Of a stretch of 32,317 nt of DNA, positions 9,063 through 15,109 are shown piece after piece. Source of the stretch: Vulcanimicrobiota bacterium (GTDB taxonomy: Bacteria; Vulcanimicrobiota; Vulcanimicrobiia; Vulcanimicrobiales; Vulcanimicrobiaceae); the NCBI GenBank assembly GCA_003136355.1, contig PLED01000051.1:19445-51761 (forward strand), written 5' to 3'. The translations under genes and the position numbers were made by a program. Each line of letters begins with the position of its first letter. Within the stretch, counting starts at the first letter, position 1. The notes beneath the pieces are model-generated. The model was not told the origin of the DNA. It made no database searches and saw only the letters and a program-made list of their open reading frames with translations.

Positions 9063-9446
9063 ATGCTTCCAACACCGGCGCCTTCCCCCACGATCGACCC
9101 GTGCAATCATCCGCCGGCGATCGTCAGTAAAGCGCCGCTCAGATCCTACGGAGCATTTCCGCTCACCGCAATACCGATTGGAAGATATGGATCTTCGCGG
9201 ATGCCGCCGGACCCGCTCTCAGCCCAGCTGCCGCAGCGGGAGCCCCTAGCGGTAACTTTGGACGTGCTGATCGATGCCGCGGGAAGGCCGCTCGTAGCTC
9301 GCGTCGTGACGACAAGTAGCGACACGTCTTTCGACCGCGCCTCGATCGACGCCGCCATGCGTTCAACATATTCCGCCGGAAAGACGAAGTGCGCTTTCGT
9401 TACGGCGCATTATACGTTCGATGAAACCCTTGGGGCTGCGCTCTAG
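9063..9446 (+). CDS. small TonB C-terminal-domain-like protein
   Basis: A 127-residue protein. Residues about 60-125 look like the TonB energy-transducer C-terminal domain: a strand with LDVLIDAAGRP, then VVTTSSDTSFDRASIDAAM, then a final YTFDETL strand. The first 50 residues are Pro-rich and show neither a membrane anchor nor a signal peptide, which is odd for a TonB-like protein. It follows hmgA by 6 nt and is in the same reading frame, separated only by the hmgA TAG and two codons. Its own TAG shares bases CTAG with the fah stop on the other strand. The gene is likely real; its function is unknown. Confidence 0.65.
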   Translation: MLPTPAPSPTIDPCNHPPAIVSKAPLRSYGAFPLTAIPIGRYGSSRMPPDPLSAQLPQREPLAVTLDVLIDAAGRPLVARVVTTSSDTSFDRASIDAAMRSTYSAGKTKCAFVTAHYTFDETLGAAL

Positions 9447-10693
9447 CGCGGCGGTAAAATCTTTCCCCTCACTTCGCCGAATCCGATTCTTGGTTTTCCT
9501 GCCGCCTCGCAGTACCCGGTTAAAGTCACTTCATCTCCGTCTTCCAAAAAGCGCCGCTCTTCACCCGACGCGAGCTTCAACGGCTTCGTGCCGCGCCACG
9601 TGAGTTCGATCAAACTTCCGTAAGAGGCAGCATCGGGACCGGAGATCGTTCCCGACGCAAACAGATCGCCGGGCGATATCGTTGCGCCGTTAGAGGTCGC
9701 GTGCGCGAGTTGCTGCGCCATGCTCCAGTAGAGATATTTAAAGTTCGAGCGCGAGATGACTTCGCCCTCAGCGCTTTCGCCGCGCATCTTCTCCGTTCGC
9801 AGCGCGATCTCTAACGCGATATCGTAGTTCCAGTCTTGCGCGGCGTGCAGATAGGGCAGCGGCGCGGGATCCTGTTTGGGCGGCGCGGTACGGTACGGCT
9901 CGAGCGCGTCGAGGGTCACTACCCACGCAGAGATCGACGTCGCAAAGGATTTCCCGAGAAACGGCCCGAGCGGCTGATATTCCCAGGCCTGGATGTCGCG
10001 CGCGCTCCAGTCGTTTACGAGCACCAGGCCGAAAATGTGTTCTCGCGCGCGATCGATCGGAACCGGCTCGCCGAGCGCGTTACCGCGGCCGGTGACGAAT
10101 CCGACTTCGAGTTCGATATCCAGCATCGCCGTCGGCGCGAACTCCGGCTCGCCGTTTTCCTGTTTGATCTGTCCGCGCGGCCTGACGACCGGCGTACCGT
10201 CGACGACAACCGTTCCCGCGCGTCCGTGATAGCCGACCGGCAGCCGCCGCCAATTCGGGAGCAGCGGCTCGGTGCCGGGCCGCATGATCTTTCCTAAGTT
10301 AGTCGCGTGTTCTAAAGACGAATAGAAATCAACGTAGTCGCGCACTTCAAAGGGCATGACCATGCGCGCCGAATCACGCGAAACAATGAAGTTCGCGCGG
10401 TCCTCCGATGCGATCGGAGACGAACTCGCAAGCAGCTCCTGGAGCCGGCTGCGCACATCGGCCCACGCTTTACGCCCGAGTCCGAGTAACTCGTTCAACG
10501 AAGCGGCGCGCAAGGCGTCGCTGAGGGTAGAATCGCTAAACAAGCCGGCGCGCGACGCCGCGTGCACGTCGAAGATCACATCGCCGATCGCCACGCCGAT
10601 ATGCGCTCCATCCGAAGCGCTGAAAACGCCGTAGGGTAAATTCTCGAGCGGAAATCCGGACCCGGCCGGAACCGGAAACCAAGACTCAGCCAC
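9443..10693 (-). CDS. fah: fumarylacetoacetase
   Basis: This enzyme hydrolyses 4-fumarylacetoacetate to fumarate and acetoacetate, the last step of tyrosine catabolism. Its 416 residues match the family (about 420). Visible landmarks are DFYSSLEHATNLG with the catalytic His, the metal-binding DIELEVGF, NDWSARDIQAWEYQPLG, and LGKSFATSIS with the active-site Lys. The start is GTG at 10693, sharing one base with the TAG stop of the upstream unknown gene, so the two are translationally coupled. It converges on the TonB-like gene. Confidence 0.97.
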   Translation of the reverse strand: MAESWFPVPAGSGFPLENLPYGVFSASDGAHIGVAIGDVIFDVHAASRAGLFSDSTLSDALRAASLNELLGLGRKAWADVRSRLQELLASSSPIASEDRANFIVSRDSARMVMPFEVRDYVDFYSSLEHATNLGKIMRPGTEPLLPNWRRLPVGYHGRAGTVVVDGTPVVRPRGQIKQENGEPEFAPTAMLDIELEVGFVTGRGNALGEPVPIDRAREHIFGLVLVNDWSARDIQAWEYQPLGPFLGKSFATSISAWVVTLDALEPYRTAPPKQDPAPLPYLHAAQDWNYDIALEIALRTEKMRGESAEGEVISRSNFKYLYWSMAQQLAHATSNGATISPGDLFASGTISGPDAASYGSLIELTWRGTKPLKLASGEERRFLEDGDEVTLTGYCEAAGKPRIGFGEVRGKILPPR

Positions 10694-11625
10694 TACGCAA
10701 GCAATCCAAGTGCGGTGAGATCGTCAACGGGTTCGCTGAAGCTGCAGCTGCCGTAGGAATGAAAGCGGTTTGTGCGCGTATCGCGCAACGCATCCGCGCC
10801 GATCAAAGTCTCTCGCCAGCGCAATCCACCCGGATCCAAAGCGAAGTGGCCCGCGTCTTCATCTTCCAGTGCGGCGATGACGCTGTCTGCGCCGGCTCCT
10901 TGCCGCACGAGTGCGGCTGCCGTCAGCACGTTCAGAAATCCGTGCATCACGAAACCGCTTTCTTCATTGTATCCGCGGACCGGATGATGCAGCCCGGCCG
11001 TCGCCTTAAGGGCGACGTCTTCTTCGGCCGCGGCGCGCAGAAACGTCGCGATATCATACACCGTTGGGATTGAAGAAGCAGTAACTCCACCGCACCGGAG
11101 TTTGGCGCGCAAGTGGTGCCGTTTCATCGACGCCAACGCGCCGGGCAGCAGCGCGTTGCGCCGTTCGTGCTGCGGCAGCTCTATATATGAAGAAAGATCG
11201 CTCAGGCCGCTTTGTGCGAGCGCAGCTGAATATTGTCCGATCGCGGCGTCGTAGGTTTCGCGTTGTGAAAGCGGCGGCGGCAGCGGCAACTCGAGCGCTT
11301 CAATCGCCACGCCCGATGCTTTGTGCGCTGCGACGCGCTGCAGTGACGACTGTACCGCTGCAAACCAGGTCCGCGAGTCATCTGCTGTCCCGGCAATCAC
11401 GCTCAACGGAACCGGCGCGGGCGCAGACTGCAGCAGTTCGCCGAGCCGCGATTCCGGCACGATAAATCGCGCGAGCATCCACGCGTGCGGTCCGCGGCGA
11501 GCTCCGGCATACTCGGCAAGCGCCGCCTCCATTCCCAGCTGCGCCGGAGGAAAGAGCCCGGCGTAGTCGATCAACCCGGCAAACGCCGCGCGGAGAGCTG
11601 CCGAAGACGTCGCGGAGGTCGCCAT
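10693..11625 (-). CDS. conserved protein of unknown function in the tyrosine-degradation cluster
   Basis: A 310-residue protein that I recognise only as a conserved hypothetical type. It has no signal or membrane segment. Alternating strand-like stretches ending in charged or Gly motifs suggest a TIM-barrel-like enzyme. Candidate active-site motifs are YAGLFPPA near the N-terminus, K175-L-R-C178-G-G, K207-A-T-A-G-L-H213-H214-P, M-H228-G-F-L-N, and the C-terminal G-S-C294-S-F-S-E-P. The ATG at 11625 was chosen because upstream sequence in this frame is antisense to hppD. It is coupled to fah (shared base), divergent from hppD, and fills the place where a maleylacetoacetate isomerase gene would be expected. 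That role is only a hypothesis. Confidence 0.85.
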   Translation of the reverse strand: MATSATSSAALRAAFAGLIDYAGLFPPAQLGMEAALAEYAGARRGPHAWMLARFIVPESRLGELLQSAPAPVPLSVIAGTADDSRTWFAAVQSSLQRVAAHKASGVAIEALELPLPPPLSQRETYDAAIGQYSAALAQSGLSDLSSYIELPQHERRNALLPGALASMKRHHLRAKLRCGGVTASSIPTVYDIATFLRAAAEEDVALKATAGLHHPVRGYNEESGFVMHGFLNVLTAAALVRQGAGADSVIAALEDEDAGHFALDPGGLRWRETLIGADALRDTRTNRFHSYGSCSFSEPVDDLTALGLLA

Positions 11626-11667
11626 ATACAGGGCCGCTTCGGTCGGCTCGCTAAGTGCCCTTCTGCG

Positions 11668-12783
11668 ATGTCCGCGCTCACATCCCCAAAAACGCATCCG
11701 CTCGCGAAGATCGACTGGGATTATGTCGAGTTTTACACCGGCAATGCCAAACAGTCGGCGCATTATTATTGTTCCGCATTCGGATTCGAACAAATCGCCT
11801 ATGCAGGCCCCGAAACCGGCGTACGGGATCGCGCGTCGTACCTGCTCGCGCAAAACAATCTCCGCTTCGTGCTCACTTCGAGCTTGCTGCCGGACGACGA
11901 GATCACGCGGCACGTTGCGCTGCATGGCGACGGCGTGAAAGATATCGCGATTCTCGTTGAAGACTGCCGCGCAGCCTTCGATGCGGCCGTGGCCGGGGGC
12001 GCGCGCGTCGTTTCGGAACCCGCCGAGGTTTCCGACCAAGACGGCCGGGTTGTAAAAGCCACCATCGCCACCTATGGCGACACGGTGCATAGTTTCATCG
12101 AACGCAAGAACTATCGCGGCGTATTCATGCCGGGTTTCGTCGCTCAGGCTAAGTCGCTGCGGCACGTCACCAACCCGGAACTCTTGGCAATCGACCATTG
12201 CGTCGGCAACGTCGGCTGGGGCGAGATGGATACCTGGGGCGACTTTTACGCGCGCGTCTTCGGATTCTCGCAGCTGGTATCGTTTGACGACAAAGATATT
12301 TCCACCCAGTATACGGCGCTGCGATCAAAAGTTATGACCGACGCCGAGCACCGCGTCAAATTCCCTATCAACGAACCCGCGCAAGGAAAGAAGAAATCAC
12401 AAATCGAGGAGTACCTCGATTTCTACCGCGGCGCCGGCGTTCAGCATATCGCTATCCGTACGGACGACATCATCGCGACGATTCGGGCCCTCAAGGAAAA
12501 CGGGGTCGAGTTCCTCGATACGCCGGATACGTATTACGACGACCTCGAAGCGCGTGTCGGAAGGATCGACGAAGCGACGCAGATTCTGCGCGACCTGCGC
12601 ATTCTGGTCGATCGCGACGATCGCGGCTACATGCTGCAGATCTTCACCAAACCGTTGCAAGACCGGCCGACCGTCTTCTTCGAAATCATCCAGCGTAAGG
12701 GCAGCTTGAGCTTCGGTAAGGGAAACTTCAAAGCGCTTTTTGTCTCCATTGAAAAAGAGCAGGAACGCCGGGGAACGCTGTGA
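11668..12783 (+). CDS. hppD: 4-hydroxyphenylpyruvate dioxygenase
   Basis: An Fe(II) enzyme converting 4-hydroxyphenylpyruvate, O2 and water to homogentisate and CO2. The 371 residues form the usual pair of vicinal-oxygen-chelate domains. The iron ligands are H177 (AIDHCVGN), H260 (GVQHIAIRT) and E339 (FFEIIQRKG). The C-terminal gate region ends with GNFKALF as in the family. The ATG at 11668 is chosen; the longer open frame upstream is antisense to the divergent unknown gene. The 42-bp gap to that gene must hold both promoters, but no clear -35/-10 pair is seen. The stop overlaps deoC (GTGA). First gene of a seven-gene run. Confidence 0.97.
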   Translation: MSALTSPKTHPLAKIDWDYVEFYTGNAKQSAHYYCSAFGFEQIAYAGPETGVRDRASYLLAQNNLRFVLTSSLLPDDEITRHVALHGDGVKDIAILVEDCRAAFDAAVAGGARVVSEPAEVSDQDGRVVKATIATYGDTVHSFIERKNYRGVFMPGFVAQAKSLRHVTNPELLAIDHCVGNVGWGEMDTWGDFYARVFGFSQLVSFDDKDISTQYTALRSKVMTDAEHRVKFPINEPAQGKKKSQIEEYLDFYRGAGVQHIAIRTDDIIATIRALKENGVEFLDTPDTYYDDLEARVGRIDEATQILRDLRILVDRDDRGYMLQIFTKPLQDRPTVFFEIIQRKGSLSFGKGNFKALFVSIEKEQERRGTL

Positions 12784-13658
12784 GCGTCACGGTCGACGCG
12801 GTCATGCTCGAAGCGCGCGCCGGTTCGCTGGCGAAGCGCTCGATCAAAACGACTGCGAAGGTCGCCGGCATCCGGTTGGCGATCGGCTGCATGGATCTCA
12901 CCACGCTCGAAGGCAAAGACTCGCACGGGCGCATCCGGTCGCTCTGCGCAAAAGCGCTTCATCCGGCGCCGCATTTGCCCGACGTGCCGAGCGTGGCCGC
13001 GGTCTGCGTCTATCCGAATCTCGTGCCGGCCGCCAAGGAAGCACTGCGCGGAACCAGCGTCAAAGTTGCGTCGGTCGCGACGGCGTTTCCGAGCGGTCAG
13101 TCTTCTATGGAAGTAAAGCTTGCGGACACCGCGGCCGCGATAGCGGCGGGCGCGGACGAAATCGACATGGTTATCGATCGCGGTGCATTTCTTTCGGGCT
13201 ACTACCGCGCAGTGTACGACGAAATCGTCGCGATAAAAGCAGCGTGCGGGCCGGTGCATTTAAAAGTTATTCTTGAAACCGGCGAGCTCGGAAGCTATGA
13301 CGCAGTTCGGCGGGCGAGCGATCTCGCGCTCGAAGCCGGCGCGGATTTCATCAAGACCTCCACCGGCAAGGTGGGAACCAACGCCACCTTCCCCGTCGCC
13401 GTAACGATGTGCGAAGCGATTCGCGACTACGCGCGGCGCACGGGCCGGCGCGCCGGTTTGAAAGTTGCCGGCGGCGTGCGCAACACCAAGCAGGCCATGA
13501 CGTATTTGGTCATTATAAAGGAAACGCTCGGCGAATCGTGGCTCACGCCGGACCTTTTCCGGATCGGCGCGAGCTCGCTGCTCGACGATCTTCTTATGCA
13601 GTATGAAAAGCAGTTGACCGGCCACTATGCCGGGCGCGACTACTTCCCGATGGATTAA
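12780..13658 (+). CDS. deoC: deoxyribose-phosphate aldolase
   Basis: This enzyme splits 2-deoxyribose 5-phosphate into glyceraldehyde 3-phosphate and acetaldehyde in deoxynucleoside breakdown. A TIM barrel of 292 residues, longer than the E. coli type (259) because of an N-terminal and internal extension. The Schiff-base lysine is K192 in DFIKTSTGK, the second active-site lysine is K228 in LKVAGGVRNT, and the acid-pair Asp is in ADEIDMVID. The GTG start overlaps the hppD stop by 4 nt. The following aldehyde dehydrogenase would oxidise the acetaldehyde it makes. Confidence 0.96.
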   Translation: MSVTVDAVMLEARAGSLAKRSIKTTAKVAGIRLAIGCMDLTTLEGKDSHGRIRSLCAKALHPAPHLPDVPSVAAVCVYPNLVPAAKEALRGTSVKVASVATAFPSGQSSMEVKLADTAAAIAAGADEIDMVIDRGAFLSGYYRAVYDEIVAIKAACGPVHLKVILETGELGSYDAVRRASDLALEAGADFIKTSTGKVGTNATFPVAVTMCEAIRDYARRTGRRAGLKVAGGVRNTKQAMTYLVIIKETLGESWLTPDLFRIGASSLLDDLLMQYEKQLTGHYAGRDYFPMD

Positions 13659-13672
13659 GGCAGACCTAACAC

Positions 13673-15109
13673 ATGGCGATCTTCGAATACGCGCCCGCGC
13701 CTGAAACCGTCAAGGCTCCGATTCGCGAGCAGTACGGGCTCTTCATCGACGGCAAGTGGACCGCGCCGCGCGGCGGACAATATTTCGAGACCGTCAATCC
13801 CGCCACCGAAGAAACGCTCGCGCGCGTGGCCCACGCCGGCGACGAAGACGTCGACCGCGCCGTGCGCGCGGCGCGCAAAGCGTACGACAAGTATTGGCGC
13901 AAGATGCGCCCGGCCGATCGCGCCAAGTATATCTACCGTATCGCGCGCGCGATCACGGAGCGCTCGCGCGAACTTGCGGTGCTCGAAACGATGGACGGCG
14001 GCAAGCCGATCAAAGAGTCGCGTGATTTCGACATCCCGCTCTCGGCCGCGCACTTCTTCTATTACGCGGGCTGGGCGGATAAACTCGAATGGGCGATGCG
14101 CGCGGGCGAAGAGCCCAAGCCCATCGGCGTCGCCGGACAGATCGTGCCGTGGAATTTCCCGCTGCTCATGGCGGCATGGAAGGTCGCGCCGGCACTGGCC
14201 TGCGGCAACACGATCGTTCTGAAGCCCGCCGAGACGACGCCGCTGACCGCGCTCGCGCTCGCGCAAATTGCGGCCGAAGCCGGCCTGCCGCCGGGCGTGC
14301 TCAACGTCATCACCGGGGACGGAGCGACGGGAGCCGCACTCGTGGGTCATCCCGACGTCGATAAGATCGCGTTCACCGGCTCGACCGAAGTCGGTAAAGC
14401 CATTGCGCGTTCGACCGCCGGCAGCGGGAAACGCCTAACGCTTGAGCTCGGCGGAAAAGCGGCGCACATTGTTTTCGCCGATGCGCCTATGGATCAAGCC
14501 ATCGAAGGCATCGTCAACGGAATCTATTTCAATCAGGGTCACGTGTGCTGCGCCGGCTCGCGTCTGCTGGTGGAGGAAAGCGTCCACGAACAGATCGTCG
14601 TGCGCCTGACCGACCGCATTCAAACGCTGCGTTTGGGAGATCCGCTCGACAAGAACACCGACGTCGGCGCGATCAATTCTAAAATGCAGTTGGACAAAAT
14701 CAAAGAGTTGGTCGGAACCGGCATCGACGAAGGCGCCGTTCTCGTTCAGCAATCCTGCGAGTTACCGGAAAGGGGGTTCTTCTTTCCCGCCTCCTTCTTC
14801 ACGAACGTCCAGCAGTCGCACCGGATCGCGCGTGAGGAAATTTTCGGCCCGGTTCTTTCCATTCTTACTTTTCGAACGCCCGAAGAAGCCGTCGAGAAGG
14901 CGAACAACACGCCTTACGGCCTTTCCGCGGGCATCTGGACCGACAAAGGAAGCAAAAACATGTACATCGCGCAGTATTTGCGCGCAGGCGTGGTATGGTG
15001 CAACACGTTCAACCAATTCGATCCGAGCTCGCCGTTCGGCGGATTCCGCGAGTCCGGATTTGGGCGCGAGGGTGGCGTCCACGGCTTACGTGAGTACCTG
15101 GCCCACTGA
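13673..15109 (+). CDS. NAD(P)+-dependent aldehyde dehydrogenase
   Basis: A 478-residue ALDH-superfamily enzyme. The N-terminal cofactor domain includes PWNFPLLMAAWKVAPALA and FTGSTEVGK. The general base is E258 in LELGGK and the catalytic thiol is C292 in GHVCCAGSR. The C-terminal EEIFGPV and PFGGFRESGFGRE motifs are intact. Placement 14 nt after deoC suggests oxidation of acetaldehyde released from deoxyribose phosphate. A truncated, catalytically dead relative lies about 9 kb downstream (23834-24712), like the second half of ALDH16-type proteins. The stop overlaps the GGDEF-EAL gene by 20 nt. Confidence 0.95.
   Translation: MAIFEYAPAPETVKAPIREQYGLFIDGKWTAPRGGQYFETVNPATEETLARVAHAGDEDVDRAVRAARKAYDKYWRKMRPADRAKYIYRIARAITERSRELAVLETMDGGKPIKESRDFDIPLSAAHFFYYAGWADKLEWAMRAGEEPKPIGVAGQIVPWNFPLLMAAWKVAPALACGNTIVLKPAETTPLTALALAQIAAEAGLPPGVLNVITGDGATGAALVGHPDVDKIAFTGSTEVGKAIARSTAGSGKRLTLELGGKAAHIVFADAPMDQAIEGIVNGIYFNQGHVCCAGSRLLVEESVHEQIVVRLTDRIQTLRLGDPLDKNTDVGAINSKMQLDKIKELVGTGIDEGAVLVQQSCELPERGFFFPASFFTNVQQSHRIAREEIFGPVLSILTFRTPEEAVEKANNTPYGLSAGIWTDKGSKNMYIAQYLRAGVVWCNTFNQFDPSSPFGGFRESGFGREGGVHGLREYLAH

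Follow-up and report, generated by a model that had tools for sequence, protein, structure and literature searches.

Our analysis indicates that the gene directly before the fumarylacetoacetase gene (fah) in a 32,317-nucleotide stretch of DNA from a Vulcanimicrobiota bacterium (the whole stretch is called the window hereafter) probably encodes a maleylacetoacetate cis-trans isomerase that is unrelated to MaiA, the zeta GST. We put the probability of this assignment at roughly 0.6, with the substrate read from the gene context. In the absence of the glutathione (GSH)-dependent MaiA, a central amino-acid pathway has a hole that annotation leaves open, and the family of this 310-aa protein fits the maleylacetoacetate-isomerase hole across many phyla. 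A non-GST isomerase had been suggested for this gene in the original prediction, and the suggestion is now supported by the linkage to fah, by the absence of maiA over cut-off and by the predicted fold.

The genes of the pathway named in that prediction, hppD, hmgA and fah, are all present in the window (Table 1); Fah and HppD pass their NCBIfam cut-offs, while HmgA is a divergent member that stays under its cut-off. The TAG stop of the 310-aa gene (10695-10693) and the GTG start of fah (10693-10691) have one base in common, and 42 bp (11626-11667) separate the 310-aa gene from the ATG start of the divergent hppD at 11668, so that both the overlap and the gap claimed earlier were found in the sequence. 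The window genome has 2.52 Mb and is 96.6% complete, and the 310-aa gene is 82% identical in a record named Candidatus Eremiobacterota (L067). Relatives of hmgA lie near fah and the 310-aa gene in many loci, and in a locus of another genome with the 310-aa protein family (L183) the hmgA-like frame is longer, 447 aa against 383 aa in the window. Between hmgA and fah there is a plus-strand frame of 127 aa (9063-9446), whose end overlaps the end of fah. On the other side, deoC (DERA) directly follows hppD in the window (11668-13658) and in L067-L070, L072-L077 and L079, and among the loci scanned this adjacency was seen only in Eremiobacterota-titled loci or in untitled ones near them (four untitled). 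The gene after deoC (13673-15109) is presumably aldehyde dehydrogenase-like.

Table 1 Genes and proposed active-site codons at the fah locus of the window. A1 and A2 are family alignments of 21 and 81 members.
Feature	Position	Strand	Support or conservation
Candidate non-GST maleylacetoacetate isomerase, DERA-like TIM barrel, 310 aa	10693..11625	(-)	ORF, family alignment A2, AlphaFold, PDB fold search
fah, fumarylacetoacetase, 416 aa	9443..10693	(-)	TIGR01266, 531.4 bits (cut-off 375.3)
hppD, 4-hydroxyphenylpyruvate dioxygenase, divergent	11668..12783	(+)	TIGR01263, 462.8 bits (cut-off 277)
hmgA, homogentisate 1,2-dioxygenase, divergent short form, 383 aa	7905..9056	(+)	TIGR01015, 61.3 bits (under cut-off 510.75)
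K175 codon, strand 6 (173-177), proposed Schiff-base lysine	11101..11103	(-)	81/81 in A2, 21/21 in A1
K207 codon, strand 7 (206-209), proposed second lysine (pKa shift)	11005..11007	(-)	81/81 in A2, 21/21 in A1
C294 codon, end of strand 8, possible Michael nucleophile or substrate contact	10744..10746	(-)	81/81 in A2, 20/21 in A1
E112 codon, strand 4, possible general acid/base	11290..11292	(-)	81/81 in A2, 20/21 in A1

The 310-aa protein had been described as a member of an unknown family, and indeed no Pfam or NCBIfam model covers it: the window protein gave no match in Pfam or NCBIfam (both at E ≤ 10), in PADLOC or among PDB sequences. A profile scan of named genomes gave at least 592 candidate stretches, at least 575 of them encoding a relative, and the best 80 were kept; these 80 loci are the most similar to the query among at least 575 and not a random draw. 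Alignments of 21 members (A1), of 81 members (A2) and of seven DERA sequences (A3) were used. None of the 81 members had a Pfam match at E ≤ 0.01, and two NCBIfam families matched one member each (E 0.006 and 0.0076), which we took for chance. The A1 profile gave only chance matches against the PDB (best E 0.63). When the 21 A1 members were scanned individually at E ≤ 1, six Pfam families had a match to a single member (the strongest was Amidohydro_2, at 7e-4); these were likewise rejected as chance, as none recurred in A2 at E ≤ 0.01.

By their titles, the 80 best loci belong to Eremiobacterota, Actinomycetota, Bacillota, Cyanobacteria, Planctomycetota, Acidobacteriota, Gemmatimonadota, Chloroflexota, Verrucomicrobiota and Armatimonadetes, and further to Krumholzibacteriia, Eisenbacteria, Calditrichia, Bacteroidetes/Rhodothermia and Ignavibacteria; for some of them we presume the phylum from the genus name. 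Two are archaeal MAGs (Heimdallarchaeota and Poseidoniia), for which misbinning is possible. Plasmid copies in Streptomyces, Priestia, Pseudonocardia and Rhodococcus are annotated as "hypothetical protein" and lie directly before fahA. GSH-independent isomerization in Bacillus was a subject of older biochemistry. Among the matches listed from the open-licence PMC literature, including PMC6193087, PMC10950700 and PMC10970868, the matching parts of the articles named no such isomerase, which is not proof that none is in print; an operon of Bacillus thuringiensis is said there to hold hppD, fahA and hmgA (PMC6193087).

The family gene is closely linked to fah. In 74 of the 80 best named loci the stretch also contains fah, in every case on the same strand and downstream of the family gene, and at a distance of 200 bp or less in 71 of the 74 (median 48 bp between profile ends). 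Three of the remaining loci have no fah on the stretch (L124, L136, L144) and three have no pathway gene there at all (L098, L103, L105), but the genomes of all six hold fah over cut-off elsewhere, so that fah is present in 80 of 80. On plasmids of Priestia and Pseudonocardia the family gene sits between hppD or hmgA and fahA, and on a Rhodococcus plasmid between a cupin protein tagged tyrosine metabolism and fahA. An apparent fusion of the family protein with FAH, suggested by a zero gap in L079, was rejected: the two are overlapping frames, and no open frame in the loci examined spans both.

Presence and absence across genomes follow the same pattern. A set of 148 genomes, made up of the window genome and its relatives, includes 89 with the family and 87 with Fah over cut-off; when nine truncated or sub-cut-off Fah of over 70 bits are counted as well, 88 genomes have both, one has the family only, eight have fah only and 51 have neither (Fisher p = 6e-30), and in 119 Acidobacteriota genomes the corresponding numbers are 18, 0, 4 and 97 (p = 8e-18), although both p-values are overstated because related genomes are not independent. 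The sole family-only genome of the 148 (G094) carries only a fragment. All 119 genomes come from one phylum, that of G186 (title Acidobacteriaceae; its locus is L130); G186 counts among them and had been picked because it has the gene. No Fah over cut-off is present in the 14 control genomes, which are therefore uninformative. Occurrence mostly in genomes that lack the pathway would have spoken against the original prediction, and this is not what was seen: fah accompanies the family in 88 of 89 genomes, in 18 of 18 Acidobacteriota and in 80 of 80 named loci or their genomes. In a mirror-tree comparison of 74 loci, distances in the family correlated with those in Fah (r = 0.69, or 0.71 when Eremiobacterota are left out), but the remaining protein pairs of the pathway that we tried gave similar values (r = 0.66-0.68), implying only that the proteins travel together. 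A role in another aromatic side pathway, which had been considered equally open, is less likely, because the partner is the long fumarylacetoacetase itself.

No maiA was matched in the window genome at E ≤ 0.001, and the expectation that maiA is missing from the rest of this genome therefore held. With TIGR01262, the MaiA model, no match over cut-off was obtained in any of the 148 genomes, in two sets of named family-bearing genomes (0 of 50 and 0 of 13) or in the 119 Acidobacteriota. These 63 named genomes remain from the 80 when 17 taken as Eremiobacterota are set aside (13 by title, and the untitled close relatives L072, L074, L076 and L077), and for 55 of the 63 TIGR01262 gave nothing even at E ≤ 0.001. 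Weak GST-type matches of at most 98.9 bits occurred in 16 of 148, 6 of 50, 2 of 13 and 24 of 119 genomes; the Cyanobacterial family members have host genomes rich in GST-like genes. The model does recognize MaiA, since four plasmid-borne MaiA scored 227-297 bits (cut-off 171.05).

Plasmids allowed a comparison with maiA-bearing loci. Sixty of 171 plasmid fah records were listed, 41 of those with a Fah covering at least 94% of the query (118 plasmid records reach 80% coverage). Seven of the 41, all non-proteobacterial (two Priestia, four Streptomyces and one Rhodococcus), carry the 310-aa family. The other 34 are all proteobacterial (we take their genera to be Pseudomonadota) and do without the family. 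Of six proteobacterial fah stretches inspected, maiA adjoins fahA in four, a complementary occurrence, and the other two have neither maiA nor the family gene within 4 kb. In all, 24 plasmid records carry the family, and none of them is among the 60 maiA-like plasmid records listed out of 231.

The AlphaFold2 model made from the 81-row alignment (pLDDT 95.8, pTM 0.93) is a beta/alpha (TIM) barrel, and together with the PDB fold search it bears out the earlier guess of such a barrel. The top 47 of the 50 VIA matches listed are DERA or derived from DERA (Z 14.3-16.2, rmsd 3.1-4.2, 204-239 residues, 9-16% identity), and the DERA-type alignments span residues 7-310 of the 310-aa protein; the next matches listed are beta-amylase (13.6) and pyruvate kinase (13.4), with non-DERA TIM barrels at Z 13.3-13.6. 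In Foldseek the first 28 matches are DERA as well (best E 6e-5; rmsd 4.7-7.1 Å among the DERA matches listed). Comparison of the family with DERA by hhalign gave no sequence relation (probability 2%, E 0.024), so the Schiff-base reading given below rests on fold and spacing. The deoC gene of the window (12780-13658) was considered as the source of the family and rejected, because the profile comparison gave no relation and the adjacency is confined to Eremiobacterota-type loci. No DERA relatives were confirmed in viral contigs.

All six residues that had been pointed out as catalytic-looking are in place, and K175, K207, H213 and C294 are conserved; C178 is kept in only 41 of 81 members in A2 and 15 of 21 in A1, and fails as a catalytic hint because it is not conserved. 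The conservation of the K207 motif and of an N-terminal motif in A2 is partly built in, because parts of both were used in choosing its members; A1 was made without that selection. The single exception at C294 in A1 is a copy in G011 (L057:6938-7765) that lies directly before fah. It retains K207 but lacks R177, G179, H213, C294 and the GSCS loop, and has the look of a degenerate or repurposed gene. When the eight barrel strands were assigned from the AlphaFold model, 13 of the 15 polar residues conserved at 97.5% or more fell within a strand's final three residues or the five that follow, against a background of 28 of 132 polar residues (p = 1e-8). By strand position in the model, these residues gather at the C-terminal strand ends, which agrees with the clustering that had been proposed as a check.

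Conserved charged residues at this face of the barrel are the usual mark of an active site, and they argue against the idea that the protein is a non-catalytic partner, stabilizer or regulator of Fah. Such a role would agree with the one-base overlap in the window and with the near-constant fah adjacency in named loci, but the proteobacterial fah loci inspected do without the protein, and we consider it very improbable. The fold bears on another possibility, namely that the protein works in parallel to Fah as a C-C bond enzyme (aldolase or hydrolase type) and directly cleaves either maleylacetoacetate or an analogue derived from homogentisate, since the closest fold is that of an aldolase and the lysines agree in position, as judged from the order of the strands and the spacing. 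However, nearly every genome examined pairs the 310-aa gene with a long fumarylacetoacetase, which already cleaves the C-C bond, and a bypass of this cleavage would make fah dispensable; an enzyme of this kind is thus rather improbable.

Some genomes carry fah and neither isomerase gene. fah without the 310-aa family was found in 8 of the 96 fah-bearing genomes of the 148 set (two with Fah under cut-off) and in 4 of 22 Acidobacteriota, and in these 12 genomes (G013, G021, G025, G029, G034, G043, G051 and G128; G233, G237, G290 and G299) neither maiA nor the family was found over the search thresholds; the empty profile search of the 12 had no positive of its own, while the same profile matches elsewhere. 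G034, G043, G051 and G128 have weak GST-type matches, and some of the 12 have otherwise normal hppD/hmgA/fah clusters. It follows that the isomerase step can be met otherwise, and isomerization in these genomes may be spontaneous or thiol-driven, or may be carried out by a third enzyme. A nonenzymatic bypass has been reported for GSTZ1-deficient mice, according to a title cited in PMC10970868. The fah loci of the 12 genomes (L061-L066 and L177-L182) are candidates for a third isomerase or for uncatalyzed isomerization. One of these Acidobacteriota clusters has a 265-aa frame between hppD and hmgA (L177:7630-8424). We suspect from its motifs that this frame encodes phenylalanine 4-hydroxylase.

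As for glutathione itself, PF02955 (glutathione synthetase, ATP-binding part) gave a strong match of >150 bits in only 3 of the 148 genomes (G084, G112 and G128) and no match in the window genome, which makes a GSH bypass unlikely there. In ten more genomes weak matches exceed the low cut-off of 23 bits, but such matches mean little because 9 of the 14 control genomes, archaea included, match too. The fah-only genome G128, which has a strong PF02955 match and GST-like genes, fits a GSH route; G084 has a strong match although the 310-aa family is present.

The 12 genomes with neither gene would also be expected if the 310-aa protein cleared a side product of maleylacetoacetate (cyclized, reduced or decarboxylated) by Schiff-base chemistry, with isomerization left to proceed spontaneously or by low-molecular thiols, and a DERA-like site acting on a beta-diketone would be as well suited to a retro-aldol reaction or a condensation as to an isomerization. 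Under this explanation, however, complementary occurrence with maiA beside fah is not expected, and the lack of a PF02955 match in the window genome and of a strong one in 145 of the 148 also speaks against it; we therefore regard it as unlikely.

If the 310-aa protein is the isomerase, as we favor, it would be made together with Fah, so that Fah would receive fumarylacetoacetate without a GSH-dependent MaiA. For its mechanism we propose, with less confidence than for the reaction itself, a lysine-based route deduced from fold and residues. The C4 ketone of maleylacetoacetate, which adjoins the cis double bond, would be bound by K175 on strand 6 as a Schiff base, and K207 on strand 7 would lower the pKa of K175, as in DERA-type aldolases. 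Addition of a nucleophile (C294 or activated water) to C2 of the unsaturated iminium would turn the C2-C3 bond into a single bond, about which the molecule would rotate; elimination would then give the trans isomer, from which hydrolysis would free fumarylacetoacetate. The carboxylates might be held by Arg177, Arg284, His213 and Ser293, and protons might be moved by Asp20, Glu112 and Glu149. C294 presumably stands at the place where DERA binds phosphate, and it may therefore bind the substrate rather than attack it.

Taken as a whole, the proposal that MaiA, with its dependence on glutathione, was replaced in the tyrosine breakdown of many bacterial phyla, and possibly of some archaea, by a lysine-iminium, cofactor-free isomerase in a DERA-like barrel is tentative, and we would give it somewhat less than even odds. 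If true, the maleylacetoacetate step would have been solved a second time by an unrelated enzyme, and an aldolase site would have found a new use, with an aldolase-like lysine site doing cis-trans isomerization; tyrosine and homogentisate catabolism would become annotatable in many genomes, and pathway engineering would gain a GSH-free part.

Compared with known systems, the protein shares with MaiA/zeta GST (TIGR01262) the proposed reaction and the place beside fahA. It differs in sequence, with no maiA match among the 81 members at E ≤ 0.01 and no NCBIfam match of the window protein at E ≤ 10, and in architecture: MaiA has the GST fold (a thioredoxin-like and a helical domain), whereas the model of the 310-aa protein is a TIM barrel. 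The glutathione-independent (mycothiol-dependent) maleylpyruvate isomerases of Gram-positive bacteria perform the same type of chemistry on the analogous intermediate of the gentisate pathway, but their Pfam domains are absent from the window protein (E ≤ 10) and from the 81 members (E ≤ 0.01).

The closest predicted fold is the DERA-type TIM barrel of DERA (DeoC). In DERA, the Schiff-base lysine is on strand 6, a second lysine is on strand 7 and the catalytic Asp is D102; the 310-aa protein likewise carries one lysine on each of these two strands, as judged from strand order and spacing, and a KxxxG motif is found on both lysine strands in both families. The spacing E112-K175-K207 is 63 and 32 residues, and that of D102-K167-K201 in E. 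coli DERA, three residues invariant in the seven sequences of A3, is 65 and 34. At the end of strand 8 the 310-aa family has GSCS (81/81) where DERA has GASS, which binds phosphate. Unlike DERA, whose catalytic Asp D102 is on strand 4, the family has Glu (E112) in 81 of 81 members, the equivalence being by strand order; it has no DeoC Pfam match and no profile-profile similarity to DERA, its 310 aa include extra hairpins between strands 7 and 8, and its gene context is tyrosine catabolism. Among the fold matches are 7p75 and 7p76, which according to their titles are DERA variants re-engineered for Michael additions. In contrast to the 310-aa protein, these are engineered enzymes that act on other substrates; by analogy, their titles suggest that a DERA-type site can drive a Michael-type addition through a Schiff base.
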